DNA from: Desulfobulbaceae bacterium
GTDB lineage: Bacteria; Desulfobacterota; Desulfobulbia; Desulfobulbales; SURF-16
Direction of reading: 5' to 3'
Assembly (NCBI GenBank): GCA_002868945.1
Contig: PKTX01000046.1
Location: 1 to 64,000 of the forward strand
Length of the DNA: 64,000 nucleotides
Shown in pieces: positions 24,749-38,808 of the stretch (within the stretch, counting starts at the first letter, position 1; each line of letters opens with the position of its first letter). Below the pieces are notes generated by a model. The model searched no databases. It was not told where the DNA came from and saw nothing but the letters and a program-made list of their open reading frames with translations. The position numbers were made by a program, and so were the translations under genes.

Positions 24749-25399
24749 TCAGTGGTCTTGAACGCTCTCCCTGTCTTCCCCCTCGTCAACCTTGCGCATG
24801 CCCTCCATGAGGATCATCATGAAGTTGCCCAGCTGATCACGATGACGTTCCTCCTCCGCCAGGCCTGCCTCAAAATGAAAAGAGCCTTCTTTCTCGGCCA
24901 GCATGGCAAAGATGGCGGCCAGACCTGTCTCCTGCAGATAGGTGGCCCGGATAAATTCCCCGTCGCGGAAAAGGGCAGAGCCCGGGCCGCCGGGGAAGTC
25001 AAAACGGATAATGCCGGTTTTTTCGCTTAAATTGAGGGCCTGAAAGATTTCGGTGGTGGAAAAGGTGTTGAGGTTGCCATGGATGCCGCTGGTTGTTGCG
25101 CAGCCCTCGGCCTCGGTGGCGCCCTCTTTGTCGGGCATGGCCTGCTCATCGGTGAGTTTGAACTTGATAAGGCCGGTGCAGCCGCCGCAACCATAGAGGA
25201 GGGACGGGTCCGGCTGTTCCTTACCCAGGAGCTTGAAAAGGAGCTGGGTCAGTTCCCGGATAAGGATGAAGCAGGCCGGTTTGCACTCGGGAAAGGCAAC
25301 GGCATTGTCCCGGAGTACGATCTGGTCGCCTTTTTTGTAGAGGGGGCAGTTGAGTTCATCGACGATCTTAAAGACTGCGGTATAGGGTTGCATGGGCAT
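24749..25399 (-). CDS. DUF4388 (PATAN-like) domain protein
   Basis: 216-residue cytoplasmic protein. The first ~85 residues (VFKIVDELNCPLYKKGDQIV, FPECKPACFILIRELTQLL, GCGGCTGLIKF) form a small cysteine-containing domain that recalls the TIGR04076 pattern. From about residue 100, GNLNTFSTTEIFQALNLSEK, TGIIRFDF, ALFRDGEFIRATY and EGSFHFEAG match the DUF4388 signature common in delta-proteobacterial signalling proteins near GTPases and chemotaxis proteins. The function is unknown. The gene is convergent with the preceding one. Its 5' side is filled with repeat elements, so its promoter may come from one of them. Confidence 0.68.
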   Translation of the reverse strand: MPMQPYTAVFKIVDELNCPLYKKGDQIVLRDNAVAFPECKPACFILIRELTQLLFKLLGKEQPDPSLLYGCGGCTGLIKFKLTDEQAMPDKEGATEAEGCATTSGIHGNLNTFSTTEIFQALNLSEKTGIIRFDFPGGPGSALFRDGEFIRATYLQETGLAAIFAMLAEKEGSFHFEAGLAEEERHRDQLGNFMMILMEGMRKVDEGEDRESVQDH

Positions 25400-25512
25400 A
25401 CTCGCTGAGTTCGCTCAGCCTGAGCCGCTCTGTCTGAGGGCTCAGCTGGCCGGGATGTGGAAAAAAGATTCCTTTTTTATAGAGGTTGTTTATACTCTAA
25501 GCGTGTCATCTG

Positions 25513-25804
25513 GTGCCTGTCCGGAAAGGGCTTTTCAACCGATCTCTCGGAGTCTCACGAGCTCGCTTACCTTGGCATGCTCAAGGCACACTGCTCGGCA
25601 GATGTCTGTACCCCAAGGGCACTTCTTTCACAGTCCGTTGAAAAACGTAACGAGCCCAGCTGAGCCGAATTTTGACGACGCATCAGCAAGTTCAGTATTT
25701 TTTCAGCGGGCTGTTCAGGGCGTGCTTATTTTTTCGCACTCCTTGATTTCGAACAGCTAAGTGAGCCGGCGAGACTCCAAAATGACCTGCGTCTGGATAG
25801 ACGG
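25513..25804. repeat. Family I element with a nested repeat inside
   Basis: Left GTGCCTGTCCGGAAAGGG; right end is a decayed GTCTGGATAGACG. The interior carries the usual CGGAGTCTCACGAGCTCGC / CTAAGTGAGCCGGCGAGA inverted pair, CACCCCAAGGGCAC-type segment and CGCACTCCTTGATTTCGAAC. An additional ~83-bp repeat (25631-25713) interrupts it. Confidence 0.7.
25631..25713. repeat. Family III repeat nested in the family I element
   Basis: The ends CAGTCCGTTGAAAAAC and TTTTTTCAGCGGGCTG are inverted with 13 of 16 matches. The middle shares a 25-bp core with 11443-11467. It splits the family I sequence, so it inserted later. Confidence 0.6.
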
Positions 25805-25901
25805 CATCAAGGTAAAAAAATCTAAATAGTTGCGTTGTCTTCGCTCTCTTGAGTATGCAGACAACTGGAAGGGTGCCCCTGCATGCCGTTTCATACTAAA
25901 G

Positions 25902-26039
25902 GGTATCTTTCATCGTGAGTTTGTTTGAGTTTGCAAAGCATAGAAAATAAAAACCGTAGCATATCGGGCAGATGTGAGCATTTTTATTTTCCTTGTCACG
26001 AAAAAAAAACGGTCAAAAGAGCAGTTCTCCAAGATGGCC
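25902..26039. repeat. Family II element, degenerate copy
   Basis: Left GGTATCTTTCATC; right TTCTCCAAGATGGCC, whose complement GGCCATCTTGGAGAA matches the family II end. AAAATAAAAACC (25946-25957) and TTTTTATTTTCC give the internal AT stem typical of this family. Confidence 0.55.
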
Positions 26040-26064
26040 TAAAAATATAAACTGCACCTGCCTG

Positions 26065-26114
26065 GTGTCTGTCCGGCAAGAGATTGGGCGAAAGGGCCAT
26101 TTCCGGACAACCAC
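26065..26114. repeat. Minimal family I element (50 bp)
   Basis: GTGTCTGTCCGGCAA and TTTCCGGACAACCAC are inverted ends with only 20 bases between. It lies 48 bases before the E2-like gene. Confidence 0.55.
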
Positions 26115-26161
26115 TTTTAACGGGCTGCTAACCGTACACCCACCACACAAGTTTAGCAATC

Positions 26162-29080
26162 ATGAGCGACGCCGATAACCGTCTGGCAACAGAAGCAGAA
26201 GATGTGCAGCGCCGGTTTGCCGACCATCCCCATATCTCTATTGTCTCCACTGAGGGAAAACCGGTCAATAAATATGTTATTGAATATCGCCTGCAAGGCC
26301 TTGTCCGTCTCGATGATGGTGAAATTGCCAGATCAGACCAGCACCGTGTTGAGATAAGTCTCTCCTTTGGTTTTCCCCACTTTCCTCCCAACTGCAAACC
26401 ACTGACCCAGATTTTCCATCCGGATATAGATCCGTCCGCCATCAAAATTGCCGATTTCTGGAGCACGGAAGAGAGTATGGTCTCTCTGATTATCCATATC
26501 GGCCGGCTGATATGTTGGCAGCTCTACTCCGATGAAAATGTTTTTAACCAGGAGGCTGCCGCCTGGTTGGTCGAACACGGCAAGGATGTTCCCCTTGATA
26601 GTGTCGACCTTGCCGCTGAGCCGGAGCAGGGCGTCGCACCAGCCGCGCCTGAAGCACCGGCGGTTTCTGGGGATGTCAGCGGCGACCTTGAGCTGGATTT
26701 AGATGCCGAAGAAATGCCGGAGCTGGCCTTTGAGACCGTGGAGCTGGGGGGCGAGCAAAGCGCTCCCGCTGCCCCGGAGGCGACAGGGGGGGCGGAGCAG
26801 GAGATTGATTTTGTCGGTCATAACAGTGAGGTGGCCCGGGCAGAAGAAGAGGGGCAGCTGCCCGACATTGCCAAGGATCTGGATTTCAGCTTCCAGGCCC
26901 CGGCCGACAGTGCGCCTCGGGAATCTGCATCTGCGGCGGATGATGACAAGGAGATAGAAGGACCTGCCTTGCCGCACTCCGGCGAGATGCCCGAGTATGA
27001 GGTTGAGGGAGAGGTGGACCTTGATTTTGCCACGGTGGACGTTGATTATGACATTCTGCGCGGCATGATGGATCAGGGTAATTACTTTGCCGCCCAGCGT
27101 AAAATAGAGGGCATGGCGGCGGAGAATATCAGTGAGGCCGTGGCTGCCTTGCGTCCGGATATTGAGAAGCACATTCGGCAGGCCGAAAAGGCCTTTCAGG
27201 AGGCGCAGGAATTAGAGGCGCAGGAGCTTCTCGAGGAGGCGGCGCGTAAGTTCGAGGCTGTTCTCAATATTGCCAGGGATTATCCCGGCCTGGAAGATCG
27301 TATGAAACGGGTGCGTAATGCCTGGGTCGCCTCCATGGGGGATGGCGACGAGACGGTTGCCGGCTCCGATAAGCTGGAGATCGAAGAGGTTGAGCTGTAC
27401 GACCTTGCCGCGGATCAGGAGATCGTCCTGCCTGGCGCCATGTCGCTGTCGCTGGAAAGCAGTGAGGCGCAGCAGGGTGAACCGGAACCGGAGGAAGCCG
27501 CTCCGAGTGCGGCAAAAGAATTTGTTCCGCCCGAGGTCGCTGACAGCCTCATTGTTGAACGCTCGTCCTCATCCCCTGCAGCTGGCCGGAAAAAAGAGGG
27601 GGCGCCCGCCATGAAGGCCACCGAAAAACCCCCTCGTCAGGCCGGCAAGGACACCGAGAAGCCATCGAAATCAAAGAAGATATTTGTTGTGGCCGCTGTT
27701 GTCATCCTTGTTCTGGCCCTCTCCGGTTGGACCCTGATGGAGTGGACCTCTCTCAAAAAGGCCACGGAGAAATGGAATGCAGTGCATCCCCTCTTGCAGC
27801 AGGGTGAATATCATCAGGTGAATCAGCATTGTCAGGAAATCATTGCCCTGCTGGATCGTGTTCAGTTTGTCCTGGTCTCCGACAAGAAGAAACTTCTTGC
27901 CCAGGTTGATGATATTATCAGCTCGGAACATTTCCAGGAGGCCATCGGCGGCAAGGTCTACTATCAGGATAAATATATCTCGAAGATGGCCCATGCCGCC
28001 TATTTGGAGATCGGCAAACTGCTGGCCGCCGGCGAGAAGGCTGCTTCTGTCGGTGATTGGCAGGAGGCCCTGGCGCACTACTCGGCCGCCCTGGATGTGG
28101 CGGAAGAAAACAAAAAGCGTCTTGATGAAAAATTTTATGAGCAGGTGCTCTTCCGGGTCAAGCAGGCCCAATTTGCCGACAATGTTGCGCAGGGCAAGAA
28201 GGCCTTTGTTGCCAAGCAGTGGCCCACGGCCATTAAGCATTTGCAGGAGGCCTTGGAACTGGCAGCCCTGCCTGATGTTGCCGAGCCCGCCACACGCAGC
28301 GATGTCAACCGCTCTCTGCAGCAGGCCCGCTTTTCACAGTTGATCAGGGAGGGGGACGACTTCCTTGAGCAAGGCAAGTGGCAAGAGGCGGTGAGCCGTT
28401 ATCAAGGGGCCCATGATATTGCGCGGCAGAGTAATGTAATCGATAAGGCCAGGGCCGAGTCCGTAACCCTGAAGCTCCAGCAAACCACCCTGGTGAAGAG
28501 CGTCACGGCAGGGGATGCCTTCAGCACGGCCGGAAAGTGGGTGCCGGCCGTGCAGGAGTATGAAAAAGCGGCGGCTGTGCTGCCTTATGATGTCACTCTG
28601 CCTGGCCTGGGTGTGGCGGCCACCCGGGAGAGGGTGGCCGGTTCATTGCTCACCGCTCTCTATAACAAGGAAAGACAAGAGGCCCAGGCCTATCTGCAGG
28701 AGGGCCATTATGACAAGGCGGTTGCCGCCTTGCAAAGGGCGGTGAGCGCGGTTGAGGACTCACCCCTGAAGAGCACGGCCAAGTGGCAATTGTTAAAGAA
28801 AGAGGCGGAGGAAGAGCTGGAAAAGGCGAGTTTGCAGGGGGTTATCGACGAGAAAACCGCCTACCTCTACGCCCATTATCAAGAGTTTTTTGTGAAAAAT
28901 TTCGACGGAGTACGGGCCAAGACCTTAAGCCAACCGCGCGTTACCTTTCTGGAGGCCAGCGGCAATGCTTTGATCTTCCGCATCCGCTGTCGTGAACTTC
29001 GTGATTTGAAGTATTATACCCTGGAGCTCATCTATCAATATGATATGGCGCGGGACCAGTGGGGCTTTCAGGGTAGTTGA
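26162..29080 (+). CDS. Large membrane protein: E2/UBC-like domain, acidic linker, TM helix, helical repeats
   Basis: No known function. Residues ~20-140 look like a ubiquitin-conjugating (E2) fold: HRVEISLSFGFPHFPPN, then LTQIFHPDID for the E2 motif FLTKIFHPNVD, an aromatic/Trp stretch ADFW and a C-terminal helix ending in FNQEAAAWLVEHG. The E2 active-site Cys would fall about residue 97 and is Ala, so it is likely a UEV-like, non-catalytic domain. Residues 150-310 are Glu/Ala/Pro-rich. Residues ~310-390 form helical repeats. Residues ~517-540 (IFVVAAVVILVLALSGW), after a Lys-rich stretch, form one TM helix. The last 430 residues are TPR-like helical repeats (QEALAHYSAALDVAEENKK, WPTAIKHLQEALELA), predicted periplasmic by the positive-inside rule. 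972 residues in all; start has no clear RBS. Confidence 0.6.
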   Translation: MSDADNRLATEAEDVQRRFADHPHISIVSTEGKPVNKYVIEYRLQGLVRLDDGEIARSDQHRVEISLSFGFPHFPPNCKPLTQIFHPDIDPSAIKIADFWSTEESMVSLIIHIGRLICWQLYSDENVFNQEAAAWLVEHGKDVPLDSVDLAAEPEQGVAPAAPEAPAVSGDVSGDLELDLDAEEMPELAFETVELGGEQSAPAAPEATGGAEQEIDFVGHNSEVARAEEEGQLPDIAKDLDFSFQAPADSAPRESASAADDDKEIEGPALPHSGEMPEYEVEGEVDLDFATVDVDYDILRGMMDQGNYFAAQRKIEGMAAENISEAVAALRPDIEKHIRQAEKAFQEAQELEAQELLEEAARKFEAVLNIARDYPGLEDRMKRVRNAWVASMGDGDETVAGSDKLEIEEVELYDLAADQEIVLPGAMSLSLESSEAQQGEPEPEEAAPSAAKEFVPPEVADSLIVERSSSSPAAGRKKEGAPAMKATEKPPRQAGKDTEKPSKSKKIFVVAAVVILVLALSGWTLMEWTSLKKATEKWNAVHPLLQQGEYHQVNQHCQEIIALLDRVQFVLVSDKKKLLAQVDDIISSEHFQEAIGGKVYYQDKYISKMAHAAYLEIGKLLAAGEKAASVGDWQEALAHYSAALDVAEENKKRLDEKFYEQVLFRVKQAQFADNVAQGKKAFVAKQWPTAIKHLQEALELAALPDVAEPATRSDVNRSLQQARFSQLIREGDDFLEQGKWQEAVSRYQGAHDIARQSNVIDKARAESVTLKLQQTTLVKSVTAGDAFSTAGKWVPAVQEYEKAAAVLPYDVTLPGLGVAATRERVAGSLLTALYNKERQEAQAYLQEGHYDKAVAALQRAVSAVEDSPLKSTAKWQLLKKEAEEELEKASLQGVIDEKTAYLYAHYQEFFVKNFDGVRAKTLSQPRVTFLEASGNALIFRIRCRELRDLKYYTLELIYQYDMARDQWGFQGS

Positions 29081-33358: not shown

Positions 33359-33632
33359 GAGAAGGGCCCCTGGCAGCCCCCTGTTGCATGGCATTTGGCA
33401 AGCGTTTCAAAAAAAATATCAAGATTTCAAAATGTTGTGCCGATAGGTGCGCCATAGAGCCTTCTCTTTTTCATGTAGAGGTCTCGTTTATCTAGCGGAC
33501 AACGTGGATATCTGTGTTTTTTTGGGGTTCCCTGCAATCTGTCAGCAGGGAGAATAGCGGCTACCAGGCAAGGGTCTTCTCGAAGCAGAGAGGGTCTTGG
33601 CCCGGCAGGCAACAAGAGAAAGGGGGAACGTC

Positions 33633-35150
33633 GTGGCGGACAAACCGGAAATTTTTCTGGAAATCGGGGCAGGGTATTTTCGTATACCCACTGCAGAGGC
33701 CAATTATAATATTACCATTATCGGTGAACAGGCCGGTGCCTCGACCGTGCAGACCACGGCGCCGCTTCCGCAGGATATGGCCACCACCGGCGGCGGGGTC
33801 GGTGATGATGATTATTATCAGGCGGTTTCAGAGGATCTTTATCACGATATCGGCCATCTGGCCAAGTCGCTCAGTGCCACCATCATGGAGATTCCGGCCG
33901 AGGATCGGCGTCAGCAGCGGGCCACCCTTGATGAGGCCGGTGACAAACTGGAGAGCGCCAAGACTCAGTTAAAGGATATTGTCGCCATGACGGAAAAGGC
34001 CGCCATGGAGATCATGGACAATGTCGAAAAGGTCCAGGGCGGTACCGGCAATGTCCAGGAACTCCTCTCGGAGTTGAAGAATCATCCCGCCTTTGGTCTC
34101 AACGGCGACGAAGCACCGGCAACAGAGGAGGAAGGGGAGGAACAGGAATCGCCTATTGAGGCGGAGGTTGAGGAGATCAAGGCGGATATCGAGGCAACCC
34201 TGCGCCTGTTGCATGAGGTGGGCACCTCCGCCGGTCAGCACGAAGAAGCAGACGCAACAGCCGAGCCCGCTGAAAAATCCAAGCGCTACCTTTTTGATCT
34301 GGACGTCATTTTCCAAACACTCTATGAGCTCTGCACCAATGAAACGGTGAAGGAGCATATCAGCGGGGCCCGGGAAAAGGCGGCGGAGATTTTCGACCTG
34401 GACCGCTTCCGGGATAAAATCAGCACCAAGGCAGTGGCCTATGAGGCGGACTCCGACAATTATTTTAATGTGCCCATGTCCGATGTCTTTCAGTCCCTCT
34501 TTGCCGCCTGCAGTGACAAGGGAGTCAAAAACCTCCTTAAAAAGATGGATGCCGGCCAGAGCACCATTTTTCTTGACCAGGCCATTCCCCTGGAGGTCCC
34601 GGAGATAGAAGAGATTGGTGGTGAAGAGGAGAGCCCGGCAGCGGCCCAGGCCTCCGCCGCTACTGTTGATCCACGTCTTGGCGAGGCGATCACCGCCCTG
34701 GAAAAGGTGCAGCAGGCCGTGGACCACTTGCCGGAGTCGGCCAGTAAAAATGCCGCTGCTGCTGCGGGCGGCAGTTTGATGAGCCTTGAAGATCAGCGGG
34801 AGATCTTTGCCAAAATTGAGGCGGCCTTCAGTGTCTCCACGGCAATAACCGCCGATGTCTCGAAGATCACCGAGTCGCTCAGCTTCCAGGACCTTTCCGG
34901 GCAGCGTATCATGAAGATCCTCAAGCTGCTCAGTGATTTTCAGGTTCAGCTTCTGGCTCTGGTGGTCAGTTTCGGCTCACAACTCAAGCTTAAGAAAAAG
35001 AATGTTGATATCTCTGTGGAGGAGAGTAAGGCCCTGGCCCAGGAGGATGTGGACAAGTATCTCGGCTCCATTGCCGGAGAAGAGCAGGATGCGGAGAGCA
35101 TGCTTGACCAGCAAACCGTCAACAAGATGTTGGAAGATTTCGGCTTTTAA
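33633..35150 (+). CDS. CheZ-like protein phosphatase with ~220-residue insertion
   Basis: CheZ dephosphorylates CheY-P. The N-terminal part (EDLYHDIGHLAKSLSATIME, then TQLKDIVAMTEKAAMEIMDN) matches the first helical hairpin of CheZ. The catalytic segment is SLSFQDLSGQRIMKILKLL, with Asp 420 and Gln 424 equal to the E. coli CheZ pair D143/Q147. The last residues, VNKMLEDFGF, mirror the CheZ C-terminal CheY-docking peptide (DDLLDSLGF). Between them lies an acidic, helical insertion of ~220 residues of unknown role. 505 residues from the GTG at 33633, preceded by AAAGGGGGAACGTC; CheZ is normally 210-240. It lies upstream of the MglA-like/roadblock gene run. Confidence 0.8.
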   Translation: MADKPEIFLEIGAGYFRIPTAEANYNITIIGEQAGASTVQTTAPLPQDMATTGGGVGDDDYYQAVSEDLYHDIGHLAKSLSATIMEIPAEDRRQQRATLDEAGDKLESAKTQLKDIVAMTEKAAMEIMDNVEKVQGGTGNVQELLSELKNHPAFGLNGDEAPATEEEGEEQESPIEAEVEEIKADIEATLRLLHEVGTSAGQHEEADATAEPAEKSKRYLFDLDVIFQTLYELCTNETVKEHISGAREKAAEIFDLDRFRDKISTKAVAYEADSDNYFNVPMSDVFQSLFAACSDKGVKNLLKKMDAGQSTIFLDQAIPLEVPEIEEIGGEEESPAAAQASAATVDPRLGEAITALEKVQQAVDHLPESASKNAAAAAGGSLMSLEDQREIFAKIEAAFSVSTAITADVSKITESLSFQDLSGQRIMKILKLLSDFQVQLLALVVSFGSQLKLKKKNVDISVEESKALAQEDVDKYLGSIAGEEQDAESMLDQQTVNKMLEDFGF

Positions 35151-35180
35151 CTGAAAGAAGCGTTGATGCGGCATCAAAAA

Positions 35181-35223
35181 AAGGGGTGGCCGGAGAAAAA
35201 TTCTCCGGCCACCCCTTTTTTTT
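35181..35223 (+). terminator. Terminator of the CheZ-like gene
   Basis: AGGGGTGGCCGGAGAA-AAA-TTCTCCGGCCACCCCT followed by eight T residues and preceded by seven A residues; can act on both strands. Confidence 0.93.
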
Positions 35224-35246
35224 GTGGGTACGATGGTTCTACAAAA

Positions 35247-35278
35247 AAAAGGGCCTAAGGAAAGATCATTAAGCCCTT
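35247..35278 (-). terminator. Probable terminator of tRNA-Cys
   Basis: Read on the minus strand: AAGGGCTTAATGATC-TTTCCTTAGGCCCTT then a T-run; the stem is imperfect. Confidence 0.55.
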
Positions 35279-35287
35279 GAAATAGCG

Positions 35288-35363
35288 TGGAGGCGGCACC
35301 CAGAGTCGAACTGGGGAATAATGGTTTTGCAGACCACTGCCTTAGCCACTTGGCTATGCCGCC
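35288..35363 (-). tRNA. tRNA-Cys (GCA)
   Basis: On the minus strand the cloverleaf starts GGCGGCA and ends TGCCGCC-T-CCA, so the CCA tail is encoded and the discriminator base is U, as expected for tRNA-Cys. The D arm contains AGTGGCTAAGGC, the anticodon arm TGGTCTGCAAAACCA gives anticodon GCA, and the T arm has the TTCGA loop (CCAGTTCGACTCTGG). 76 bases including CCA. Confidence 0.97.
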
Positions 35364-35369
35364 TTGCAA

Positions 35370-35918
35370 GAGATGATGCGTAAAAAGCTGGGCAATAGTA
35401 TCCGTTCAGGAATAATTTGACAAGAAAAAAAGGGCAATTGTTTCAATGCGGAGCAGTTCCCGGGCGGAAAATATGGATACCCGGAGAGCTGGTAAGGGTA
35501 AGCCCTTTAAAATATTTTAAAAAAGGATTAGATCGTTGTGTTGAGAATAGTTACAATGGCAAGGAAGTTTTACAGCCGTTGCCAGGGGCGGGAAACGTCC
35601 AGGCCATCTTGAATAATTGCTTTTTTATCCGATTTGTTCGGCGCTACGAAAATAAAAACCCTCACATATGTCCGATATGCTGCGGTTTTTATTTTCTATA
35701 CTTCTCAAACTCGAACAGGTAAGCGAGCGGAGCGAGACTCAGAAAAGATCTAATTTTATCAAGATATCCTGCCGTCATTGTCGCCCTCTGGCTTTGCCGG
35801 CAGATTGTCGCCGAGGCGGATGCGGTGTTGCTGCATTTTTGTGAATTTTTTAATCATCTTGAGTGATCCCGGCCAGCATGTCCGGCGCCCACGTCAGTCC
35901 TGAAGGAGGCATTATAAT
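35370..35918. other. Intergenic interval upstream of the roadblock/GTPase genes
   Basis: About 550 bases without a gene. It includes the family II element 35602-35769. A TTGACA at 35417 lacks a good -10. The frame at 35417-35722 is not protein-like and runs into the repeat. Confidence 0.5.
35602..35769. repeat. Family II element upstream of the roadblock/GTPase run
   Basis: Left GGCCATCTTGAATAATTGC; right AATTTTATCAAGATATCC. Inside, ACGAAAATAAAAACC and GGTTTTTATTTTCTAT form a strong stem around TATGTCCGATATGC, and GGTAAGCGAGCGGAGCGAGA recurs. Confidence 0.75.
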
Positions 35919-36320
35919 ATGTATGGGGTAACCCAGGAGCAGCTTGATCAGATAGATGCCCTTATTGTCTCGGATCTTATCGGTATAGGTGTCCATAGCG
36001 TTATTGTGGTGGATGTGGCGGGTAATGTCATTGCCGAGCACGATAATGGTAACGCCAATGTTGATGTCCATGCCTTTGCCGCCCTGGCGGCCGGAAATTT
36101 TGCAGCAGTGGATGCCATGGCCCAGCTTGTTGGGGAACGGGAGTTTTCCCTCCATTTTCATAAAGGCGAGGATGAGTCCATTCATTTCAGTAAAATAAAC
36201 GACGATATCCTGCTTATTACCATTTTCGGGAATGATGTCTCCCTTGGTTTTTTGCGCCTTAAAACAACGGAAGTCATCGATAAGATAAAAGAAATGTGGA
36301 AAACAACCGACTACTCATAA
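35919..36320 (+). CDS. Roadblock/LC7-domain protein (putative MglB-like partner)
   Basis: 133 residues. The alternating pattern GVHSVIVVDVAGNVIAEHDNG, AFAALAAGNFAAVDAMAQLVG and NDDILLITIFGNDVSLGFLR is that of the roadblock/LC7 fold, whose bacterial members (MglB) act as GTPase-activating partners of MglA-type Ras-like GTPases. It lies 30 bases upstream of such a GTPase gene, which supports that partnership by inference. No membrane segment. RBS AAGGAGGCATTATAAT precedes the ATG. Confidence 0.82.
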   Translation: MYGVTQEQLDQIDALIVSDLIGIGVHSVIVVDVAGNVIAEHDNGNANVDVHAFAALAAGNFAAVDAMAQLVGEREFSLHFHKGEDESIHFSKINDDILLITIFGNDVSLGFLRLKTTEVIDKIKEMWKTTDYS

Positions 36321-36350
36321 AAAGGGGGAGTCGGCCGTACAATTTTTTTT

Positions 36351-36968
36351 GTGAGGTGGGCTTTGGGCTTTGTAAACGTTAAAAAGCAAGAGGTGCTGGT
36401 TAAGCTCGTCTATTATGGGCCGGGCCGTGGTGGTAAAACAACCAACCTCGATTATATTAATAACAAATTCAAAGAGCGTATCAAAACGGACATGGTCAGT
36501 ATCAAGACCCATGGTGACCGGACCCTCTTTTTTGACTTCCTGCCTGTTGATATCGGTAAGATCAAGGGCTTTGATATCAAGATCCAGCTCTATACCGTGC
36601 CTGGCCAGGTAAAGTATAACGCCACGCGGAAGCTTGTTCTGAAAGGGGTGGACGGCCTGGTCTTTGTGGCGGACAGCCAGGTGGAGATGCGTGAAAAGAA
36701 TGTCATTGCCTTAAATCAGATGAAAGAGAATCTGGCGGCCATGAATAAAGACATCAGCAAAATACCGTTGGTTCTCCAGTATAATAAGTTGGATCTGGCC
36801 GAGGAGGGCATAGAGCTCCTTGATTTTGATACAATGGAAGCTGACCTGAACAGTGAATTAAAGGTTCCGGCCTTTCAGGCCAGTGCTGTTACCGGTTATA
36901 ATGTCGTCAATACCCTGAAAAAGGCTATTTCGCTTACCATGGTCTCATTCAAAAAAGAGTTGTTGTAG
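36351..36968 (+). CDS. MglA-like small Ras-type GTPase
   Basis: Small GTPase of the bacterial MglA/Arf-like group that sets cell polarity or controls motility machinery. The G motifs are visible: P-loop YYGPGRGGKTTNLDYI, switch region with FFDFLPVDIG, DxxG replaced by YTVPGQVKYN as in MglA, and QYNKLDL for N/TKxD. 205 residues from GTG 36351. A TTG at 36363 just after GAGGTGGGC gives the better fit to MglA N termini, so the real start may be there. Lies between a roadblock gene and a large acidic protein, with short gaps. Confidence 0.88.
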   Translation: MRWALGFVNVKKQEVLVKLVYYGPGRGGKTTNLDYINNKFKERIKTDMVSIKTHGDRTLFFDFLPVDIGKIKGFDIKIQLYTVPGQVKYNATRKLVLKGVDGLVFVADSQVEMREKNVIALNQMKENLAAMNKDISKIPLVLQYNKLDLAEEGIELLDFDTMEADLNSELKVPAFQASAVTGYNVVNTLKKAISLTMVSFKKELL

Positions 36969-36981
36969 GAGAGGTTCTTTC

Positions 36982-38808
36982 ATGTCCGATCGTGATTCTG
37001 CCAGCCCTGTTGAAATCCTTGAGAAGCTCAAATCAGCAATTCTTGATATCGATTGGGAAATTTCTGATGAGAATATTGCCGTCCTTAATGATGAGTTGGC
37101 CGCCTTGCGGAGCATCTGGGAGGGGCAAAAGACGCAGCAGATTTATCTACAGATCCTCGGGGCCCTGAGCCATTATATTGCCGTTAACAAAGAGCAGGCC
37201 AATCCCGCTGTTTTCCCCATGCTGCGGAACGCCTTTGCCAGTCTGGAAGAATTGGTGGTCAGTCCCGGCAGTGAAGAGGATGAACAGAAAAGGCTCATGA
37301 CGCATGTTGATGCCTATAATGAGCTGAAGAAGGCTGTGGCCACAGGTGGTGCGGGCCAGGCCGCCGCCGGCACCCCGGCAGAGGGGACAGCGCCCGCCTC
37401 GGAGGTGGAAGCGGAATCTCCGGCCCAAGAGGGTGGTCAGGAAAAAGAGGCCGAACCGGCCGAGGAGGAGAAGGAGGAGTCTTCCACCATTCATCGTCTC
37501 CTGGATGACAAGGAGGACCATAGCACTGATTCAATATTTGATTCCATGCTTGACGAGATGGTCCAGGTGGAGGACGAGGAGAAGAAAGAAGAACCTGAGC
37601 CGGCAAAGAGGCCTGCTGCCCCGGCCGGTCGACCGGCGGTGCAGGCCGCCTACAACAAGGCTGATGGCACGGAAGTCGAGGCTGATCGCAATATTGAAGA
37701 AGAGTTTGCCGAGGCAGATGAATTGCTGGACAACTTTTTTGAAGATGATGTGCCGCCACCCGGGGTGGCAGCCAAGACCAGCGGCGATGAGTTTGATCTA
37801 GGGACCCTGGATGATGAAGGGGAAGGCGACGACATCCTGGATCTGGATGAGACGGAGCAGGCAGCCGGCGAGGTGACGGCGGCCCAGGAAACCCGTGAGC
37901 TCGATGAGGCCGCTTCCCTGGAGGTTCCGCCGGCAGAGGGACCGGAGCCGCCCCTTGCTCAACTGGAGCAGGTTGAGGCTTCTGAGCTGGATATTTTTAA
38001 GCTTGAGGAAGAATCTGCCCAGCCGCAAACCGCGGAGGCGGACGAGGGGGGGGATTTCCCTGAGATGGAGGCGGCCCTTGACGATTTTTTTGAGGGGGAG
38101 GCTGAACCTGCCCCTGCTCAGGCTGATGGCGCGGCGCAGGCCGCGACTGCACCGGCTGATGCTGAACATGGCGAGGTGGAGGCGGCCCTGGATGATTTCT
38201 TTGCGGAGGAAGAGCCTGAAGGGGCGAGCGCCGGCGCATCCCCGTCGGCATCCGGAGGCGAGGCGGCAGGTGTATCCGCGGCCCTTGCGCGGATCCAGGC
38301 CCTGCTGGACTCTGCGGCTGAGGGCATAGATGATGTGCTTCTGCAGGGGCTGAACGAGGAGATCAACAATCTCGTCCCTGCGGTGGCGGGACAGGCTGCG
38401 GCCTTGAGCCATCTCAACCTCCAGAAAAGTGTGCTGCGCCATCTCGACAAGGCATCATCTCCAGAGCTTGTCACGGCATCTCTGCACTCTCTGCAGGAGC
38501 TGACCACTAGTTTTGCGGATATGATGGCGGCTGCGCCGGATGAAGAGGGCCGTTTTTTGCCCCGGGCAGTGACCGTTTTTGTTGACTGGCACGAGCAGAT
38601 GATGGCCGATTTTGAAGATCGGCCGGCCCACTCCCTGGCCCCGGACAGTGCCGCTGAAGAAACAACCGAGAAGGGTGAGCCGCTCGGAGTTGGTGCGCAG
38701 CCTGAGAGTGGCCGGGAGGGATTGAAGGCTGAAATTCTCGCGGAGGTTCGCGACCTCTTGCGCCATGAAATAGAGGCGATCCGGCAGGAATTCCTGGCCA
38801 AGGAATAA
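36982..38808 (+). CDS. Large acidic protein with duplicated helical domain and LDDFF repeats
   Basis: Unrecognised. 608 residues, cytoplasmic. Residues ~8-95 (EISDENIAVLNDELAALRSI...) and ~435-520 (EGIDDVLLQGLNEEINNLVP...) look like two copies of one helical bundle. Between them lies a Glu/Ala/Pro-rich, probably disordered linker containing short repeats: DELLDNFFEDD (about 245), EAALDDFFEGE (about 363) and EAALDDFFAEE (about 400). These repeats resemble the C-terminal peptide with which CheZ binds CheY (LLDSLGF) and the end of the neighbouring CheZ-like protein (KMLEDFGF). The C terminus is another helix. Starts 13 bases after the GTPase; RBS GGAGAGGTTCTTTC. Confidence 0.7.
   Translation: MSDRDSASPVEILEKLKSAILDIDWEISDENIAVLNDELAALRSIWEGQKTQQIYLQILGALSHYIAVNKEQANPAVFPMLRNAFASLEELVVSPGSEEDEQKRLMTHVDAYNELKKAVATGGAGQAAAGTPAEGTAPASEVEAESPAQEGGQEKEAEPAEEEKEESSTIHRLLDDKEDHSTDSIFDSMLDEMVQVEDEEKKEEPEPAKRPAAPAGRPAVQAAYNKADGTEVEADRNIEEEFAEADELLDNFFEDDVPPPGVAAKTSGDEFDLGTLDDEGEGDDILDLDETEQAAGEVTAAQETRELDEAASLEVPPAEGPEPPLAQLEQVEASELDIFKLEEESAQPQTAEADEGGDFPEMEAALDDFFEGEAEPAPAQADGAAQAATAPADAEHGEVEAALDDFFAEEEPEGASAGASPSASGGEAAGVSAALARIQALLDSAAEGIDDVLLQGLNEEINNLVPAVAGQAAALSHLNLQKSVLRHLDKASSPELVTASLHSLQELTTSFADMMAAAPDEEGRFLPRAVTVFVDWHEQMMADFEDRPAHSLAPDSAAEETTEKGEPLGVGAQPESGREGLKAEILAEVRDLLRHEIEAIRQEFLAKE

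Follow-up and report, generated by a model that had tools for sequence, protein, structure and literature searches.

Nearly all known bacterial E2 domains come from conjugation and defense operons, among them ubiquitin-like conjugation operons described by Iyer et al. (2006, PMC1779556) and, as Bil/Bub operons, cited in PMC13373217. Inactive E2/RWD-like domains have been described in bacterial polyUbl operons of type 6e (PMC1779556). In eukaryotes, UEV domains (Mms2, the Tsg101 UEV) and RWD domains adopt the E2 fold without its cysteine and are used for binding. PATAN is a domain of undetermined function, and PATAN/DUF4388 proteins include PatA (PMC7380572); to our knowledge, no UBC protein works with PatA. 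The locus described here lies in the window, the whole 64-kb stretch of DNA that was analyzed, and encodes a protein in which a UBC (E2-fold) domain is joined by a linker and a single transmembrane (TM) helix to a TPR solenoid and a C-terminal beta domain (Table 1). The initial annotation knew of no described system with this order of parts. In the open-access literature searched, we likewise found no description of the UBC-TM-TPR architecture, nor any earlier account of a UBC domain exapted into a membrane protein for which a candidate partner is proposed; that no report exists at all is not proven.

Table 1. Features of the UBC-TM-TPR locus and of the divergent gene upstream, in window coordinates
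Feature	Coordinates	Strand	Basis or remark
Candidate partner gene, Cys-rich N-terminal domain and DUF4388/PATAN domain	24749..25399	-	DUF4388, 5.8e-19
Intergenic region between the divergent UBC and partner genes	25400..26161	.	Weak promoter-like site, one per strand; no strong claim
Whole gene, UBC-linker-TM-TPR-beta protein	26162..29080	+	ORF, 972 aa, ATG start
UBC (E2-fold) domain, residues 1-152	26162..26617	+	UQ_con, profile against the PDB, AF2 model; cytoplasmic side inferred
FGFPHFPPN, E2 FPxxP-type motif, residues 69-77	26366..26392	+	Conservation
HPD, counterpart of the E2 HPN motif, residues 86-88	26417..26425	+	Conservation
Lys95, catalytic-cysteine position	26444..26446	+	Alignment to Cys-bearing homologues and to E2s beside Ub-like genes
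Acidic linker	26618..27016	+	Differs between homologues
Helical TPR-like stretch, residues about 290-395	27029..27346	+	Inferred from sequence; cytoplasmic side
Single transmembrane helix, residues about 507-525	27680..27736	+	Hydropathy 2.66
Periplasmic TPR solenoid	27743..28900	+	Pfam TPR families, AF2 model, fold matches
Conserved C-terminal three-stranded beta domain	28838..29077	+	Conservation, AF2 model; strands at model residues 403-442

The N-terminal domain has a UBC fold and is a true relative of E2s. The Pfam family UQ_con matches residues 57-134 of the isolated window domain (E=7e-5, 22.9 bits, under the cut-off of 27 bits for this sequence alone) and 40 of the 41 homologues, with a best E of 7e-10; these homologues are the ORFs that are covered fully or nearly so, the window sequence being counted among them. 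A phmmer search of the PDB with the window sequence reaches E2s at about 0.007, and the family profile does so at 1.2e-7, all 60 matches shown being E2 chains. Residues F69, G70, P72, F74 and P76 are invariant across the 41 homologues, as are P80, H86, P87, D90, W100, L109 and A132, and D88 is present in 40 of them. This conservation argues that the FPxxP and HPD motifs, the latter within IFHPDID (residues 84-90), are not a product of chance. The asparagine of the E2 HPN motif is replaced by aspartate in the window and in nearly all family members. The AF2 model of the domain, built from seven sequences without the homologues of the genome search, shows the helix-sheet-helices order of E2s with modest confidence (mean pLDDT 68, pTM 0.67). 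In Foldseek, the 50 top-ranked rows all hold E2/UBC chains, alone or within complexes (E about 1e-4); VIA-align reaches Z values of up to 10.2 over 103-127 residues, mostly with UBC-fold chains, among them the UEV Ube2V1.

Alignment with homologues that have the cysteine (AICIGDFW) and with E2s encoded beside Ub-like genes (VCAQDI, LICIGRMW) places the catalytic position at Lys95. Cys is found at this position in f7, in f15 and in the f1 genera g5 and g9; Arg occupies it in most sampled f6 members and at loci L046 and L060, Lys in the clade of the window, and Ala, Pro or Asp in small lineages; a few sampled f6 members have Ala or Pro. The tree requires at least six state changes at this position, with the FPxxP and HPD motifs retained. 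A varying catalytic residue with retained motifs is what would be expected if the fold were maintained for a non-catalytic role, and an E2 that was exapted and repeatedly lost its cysteine would fit the data. The simplest reading, which we favor, is that the ancestral state was Cys, but it is not proven because the branches of the outgroups are very long. Catalysis remains possible in the Cys-bearing clades. The window domain itself corresponds to a UEV/RWD-like domain, in the sense of a UBC fold without the cysteine; binding of a partner by this domain is inferred.

The order UBC domain, linker, TM helix and TPR array is the same in all 41 homologues, window included, each of which contains one TM helix. 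The stretch from the UBC domain to the TM helix ranges overall from 16 to 419 aa, with 23% identity. Mean pairwise identity is 47% for the UBC domain, 35% for the C-terminal domain, and 23% for both linker and solenoid, so that the UBC head is the best-conserved part of the protein. Lys and Arg are richer on the N-terminal flank of the TM helix in 30 of 41 homologues, and from this and the kinship of the UBC domain we infer a cytoplasmic UBC domain and periplasmic TPRs. In the window protein, TPR_12, TPR_11, TPR_7, TPR_1 and TPR_2 all exceed their curated Pfam cut-offs. The AF2 model of the periplasmic part, built from five sequence rows without the homologues of the genome search, shows an array of TPRs with three strands at its end (mean pLDDT 88.5). 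Its fold matches are mostly TPR proteins, including BamD, which indicates TPR and nothing finer. No named fold was obtained for the C-terminal beta domain by fold matching, the lists being taken up by matches to the TPR part, and an NCBIfam search with the window protein returned only weak, off-target matches.

From the sequence alone, the initial annotation had described an E2-like domain with FP-x-YPxxPP and HPN-like motifs, and this holds, since the motifs are conserved and homology and fold agree. The reading survived a check on the predicted structure, which is UBC-like by AF2, Foldseek and VIA-align, and a check on homologues, the PxxP and HPD motifs being conserved in the homologues sampled out of the 171 gene-bearing genomes. 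The claim that the active-site cysteine is missing holds for the window, with relatives in other families keeping it; the placement of the cysteine position at Ala97 failed, as the alignment puts it two residues earlier. The proposed acidic linker, single TM helix and periplasmic-type TPRs are confirmed, the TM helix by hydropathy and the TPRs by Pfam and AF2, with the periplasmic side inferred.

Of the 22 genomes from the family, 16 carry the UBC homologue, as do 171 of the 258 from the class, and almost every carrier has a single copy; outside the order, just three of the sampled genomes of the phylum gave a match. One of these, at L090, has HPN, Cys and a UQ_con score above the cut-off, and sits with genes for a YukD-type Ubl, a ThiF E1, a JAB protein, a Prok-RING protein and DnaJ. 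Another, a weaker UBC relative at L092, also has HPN and Cys and lies beside a ThiF E1. The E2s of L090 and L092 rank among the closest relatives detected outside the order. At L091 (7254-10418), in another family of the phylum, a 1054-aa distant UBC-TPR-TM-TPR protein without the cysteine is encoded, possibly an independent case of the same UBC-TM-TPR fusion.

The envelope part of the protein also exists without its UBC head, a point that the initial annotation had overlooked. Searched with a C-terminal-domain profile, 171 of the 251 class genomes gave a match; outside the order, the sampled phylum yielded only one, a marginal match. In genome G117, a TM-TPR-beta protein of 503 aa occupies the same locus with the UBC head lost, and no DUF4388 partner match is listed. 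In other families of the order (L138-L142), the C-terminal module carries a TPR-like, presumably cytoplasmic head in place of UBC, the proteins starting with TPR-like repeats at the position of the helical stretch of the window protein (residues about 290-395). No DUF4388 gene was found beside the module in the stretches of L138-L142 examined. As a further observation, the module at L139-L142 lies near genes that, as a sequence impression only, resemble membrane respiratory subunits and ferredoxin-type proteins. A 588-aa TM-TPR-beta paralogue in which a TPR-like head replaces UBC is encoded in the window's own genome (L135, 3716-5482 of G000:C58), which therefore holds two versions of the envelope module; a similar paralogue of 580 aa is found at L143 (3786-5528). 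From the UBC-less versions in G117, L138-L142 and L135, it follows that the envelope protein carries its UBC head as a separable module. Head and partner appear tied, as inferred from their joint absence in G117 and in the TPR-headed relatives of L138-L142.

A survey of neighbors revealed a single recurrent close neighbor of the UBC gene, the divergent DUF4388 gene upstream, which had also escaped earlier notice and is now, by linkage, the candidate cytosolic partner. The window copy scores 68.8 bits against PF14332 (DUF4388), with a cut-off of 25, and a long form in other clades adds a cNMP-binding domain (cNMP_binding 7e-17 in the L062 homologue). A DUF4388 gene lies within 3 kb at 110 of the 150 listed UBC loci, in head-to-head orientation in all 110, with a median gap of 285 nt measured between matched stretches. 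Several of the 40 loci without an adjacent DUF4388 gene are at contig ends, and in the g29/g30 genera and in G002 the neighbor seems truly missing. In two families, the UBC locus is flanked by conserved housekeeping genes (secDF, KdsD-like, birA-like), and the head-to-head pair is also found in f1 genera with different flanking genes (L060-L065 and the window). Linkage of the UBC gene to the PATAN gene is shown, and physical binding of the products is inferred, with no interaction data. A second, more distant DUF4388 copy occurs elsewhere in many genomes, some of them without UBC. One such Cys-rich/DUF4388 copy, of 367 aa, is encoded away from the UBC gene in the window's genome (L137, 2666-3769 of G000:C63).

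Farther downstream, genes for CheZ-like, roadblock/LC7, MglA-like small GTPase and acidic proteins lie in a row (33597-38808 of the window) and form a polarity- or motility-type cluster. These MglA/roadblock/CheZ genes, 5-10 kb from the UBC gene, were considered as part of the UBC unit and rejected because most homologous loci lack such a neighborhood.

Homologues of the E1, JAB, Ubl and RING components of bacterial Ub-like operons were found neither in the 64-kb window nor within about 10 kb at the 41 UBC loci, where the neighborhood search matched only a J-domain protein, at three loci within a single genus. The earlier statement that no E1, ubiquitin-like or JAB protein is nearby holds over this range, and gene linkage to a Ub-like cascade was rejected on the basis of the 41 loci and the window-wide scan. 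A Ubl of the YukD type, the only type searched for at this scale, was not found in 253 genomes of the class. JAB matches of at least 70 bits occur in 56 genomes, and by a hand count from the result tables the UBC gene shows no enrichment among these JAB-rich genomes (present in 22 of 56; base rate 171 of 258). The window's own genome does encode a ThiF-JAB pair, on another contig beside a CBASS-like nucleotidyltransferase. At this locus (L103, 5781-9428 of G000:C79), genes for a ThiF-domain protein, a JAB protein, a nucleotidyltransferase with the motif GSNTRG...DIDYMIVF and a membrane protein lie in a row, and the cluster may be of the CBASS-type defense kind.

The reading that we prefer, with moderate confidence, is that of a UEV-like docking head through which a regulator in the cytoplasm is joined to a TPR receptor of the envelope. 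It builds on the UBC fold, the conserved motifs, the replacement of the cysteine, the membrane architecture and the PATAN linkage, all of which are shown. In this view, a bacterial E2 domain would have been recruited onto an inner-membrane TPR receptor, where it would act as a non-covalent docking surface, as in eukaryotic UEV and RWD domains. The UBC domain would reside in the cytoplasm, with the long linker and the single TM helix spanning the inner membrane, and the periplasmic solenoid and C-terminal beta domain would bind an envelope ligand. On the cytoplasmic side, the divergently encoded PATAN (DUF4388) protein would be the likely partner, or else another cytoplasmic protein; the two together would link a signal in the cytoplasm with an envelope complex, in either direction. 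The orientation, the UBC-PATAN binding, the periplasmic ligand, and the signaling and its direction are all inferred. The initial annotation had put forward the idea of a UEV-like scaffold that connects a cytosolic partner to the envelope; this is supported and remains the best reading, with binding by the UBC head inferred. Several points weigh against docking: 40 of 150 UBC loci have no adjacent partner, apparently a true absence in g29/g30 and G002; many clades retain a cysteine that a pure docking domain would not need; and the UBC model is of modest confidence (mean pLDDT 68), with no interaction data. On a bolder reading, which we consider less likely than not, the two proteins would form an order-wide envelope signaling unit, in which a former E2 domain docks a cyclic-nucleotide- or PATAN-type regulator, perhaps covalently (by thioester or disulfide) in Cys-keeping clades, with the loss of Cys traceable stepwise.

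The main catalytic rival is an active membrane-anchored E2, either at present or still in the Cys-bearing clades, that conjugates a Ub-like modifier encoded elsewhere. It is favored by the presence of Cys in two separate clades (f7/f15; g5 and g9 of f1), aligned with the Cys of E2s beside Ub-like genes, by the ICIG motif common to Cys-bearing members and L092, and by the ThiF-JAB pair in the window's own genome. Against it, the window carries Lys and the sampled f6 members Arg, with few Ala or Pro; HPD replaces HPN in nearly all members; E1, JAB, Ubl and RING were not found near the 41 loci, nor a YukD-type Ubl in 253 genomes; the UBC gene is not enriched among JAB-rich genomes (22/56 vs 171/258); and the own-genome ThiF-JAB pair adjoins a CBASS-like nucleotidyltransferase on a different contig. 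We regard this rival as unlikely. A further possibility, which we consider rather unlikely, is that the UBC head serves the dimerization or stability of the TPR receptor and that the PATAN gene is a mere neighbor in a conserved region. In favor of this view, the UBC locus of two families is surrounded by conserved housekeeping genes (secDF, KdsD-like, birA-like), so that the UBC-PATAN linkage could be passive, and UBC occurs without the partner in some genomes. The pair nevertheless stays head-to-head despite different flanks in f1 genera (L060-L065, window), and G117 is without both head and partner. Finally, the likeness to E2s could be fortuitous or reflect merely a generic alpha/beta fold, as the single window sequence falls under the Pfam cut-off. 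With UQ_con matches in 40 of 41 homologues, E2 chains in all 60 PDB profile matches shown, conserved motifs and UBC-fold structure matches, this explanation is all but excluded, and chance similarity to E2s is rejected on the profile and fold evidence.

In the window family, an E2 domain now forms a conserved, chromosomally encoded part of an envelope protein in much of an order, and the replacement of its catalytic residue more than once offers a bacterial parallel to the eukaryotic origin of UEV and RWD domains. The natural series of Cys, Lys, Arg and no UBC allows the E2 fold to be studied without catalysis, and the PATAN/cNMP protein is named as a concrete candidate partner, for a domain whose function is unsettled. 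Like PatA, the partner gene has a DUF4388/PATAN domain; unlike PatA, it has a Cys-rich N-terminus, and many relatives have a cNMP-binding domain in place of the CheY-like domain. In contrast to UEV and RWD proteins, the window protein is bacterial and membrane-anchored, without a known E2 or ubiquitin partner. It resembles the E2s of bacterial conjugation operons in its UBC fold and motifs, and its relatives at L090 and L092 adjoin an E1 and, at L090, also Ubl, JAB and RING genes. It differs from them in the lack of E1, Ubl, JAB or RING genes nearby, in carrying Lys rather than Cys and HPD rather than HPN, and in its membrane anchor and TPR receptor. With the type 6e domains it shares a bacterial UBC fold without the catalytic Cys. 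Those domains are encoded in mobile clusters together with polyUbl and JAB-E1 genes, an arrangement that does not apply here, as E1, JAB and Ubl homologues are absent from the window and from the vicinity of the 41 homologues; the window gene is chromosomal, kept over much of the order, and fused to a TM helix and TPRs.
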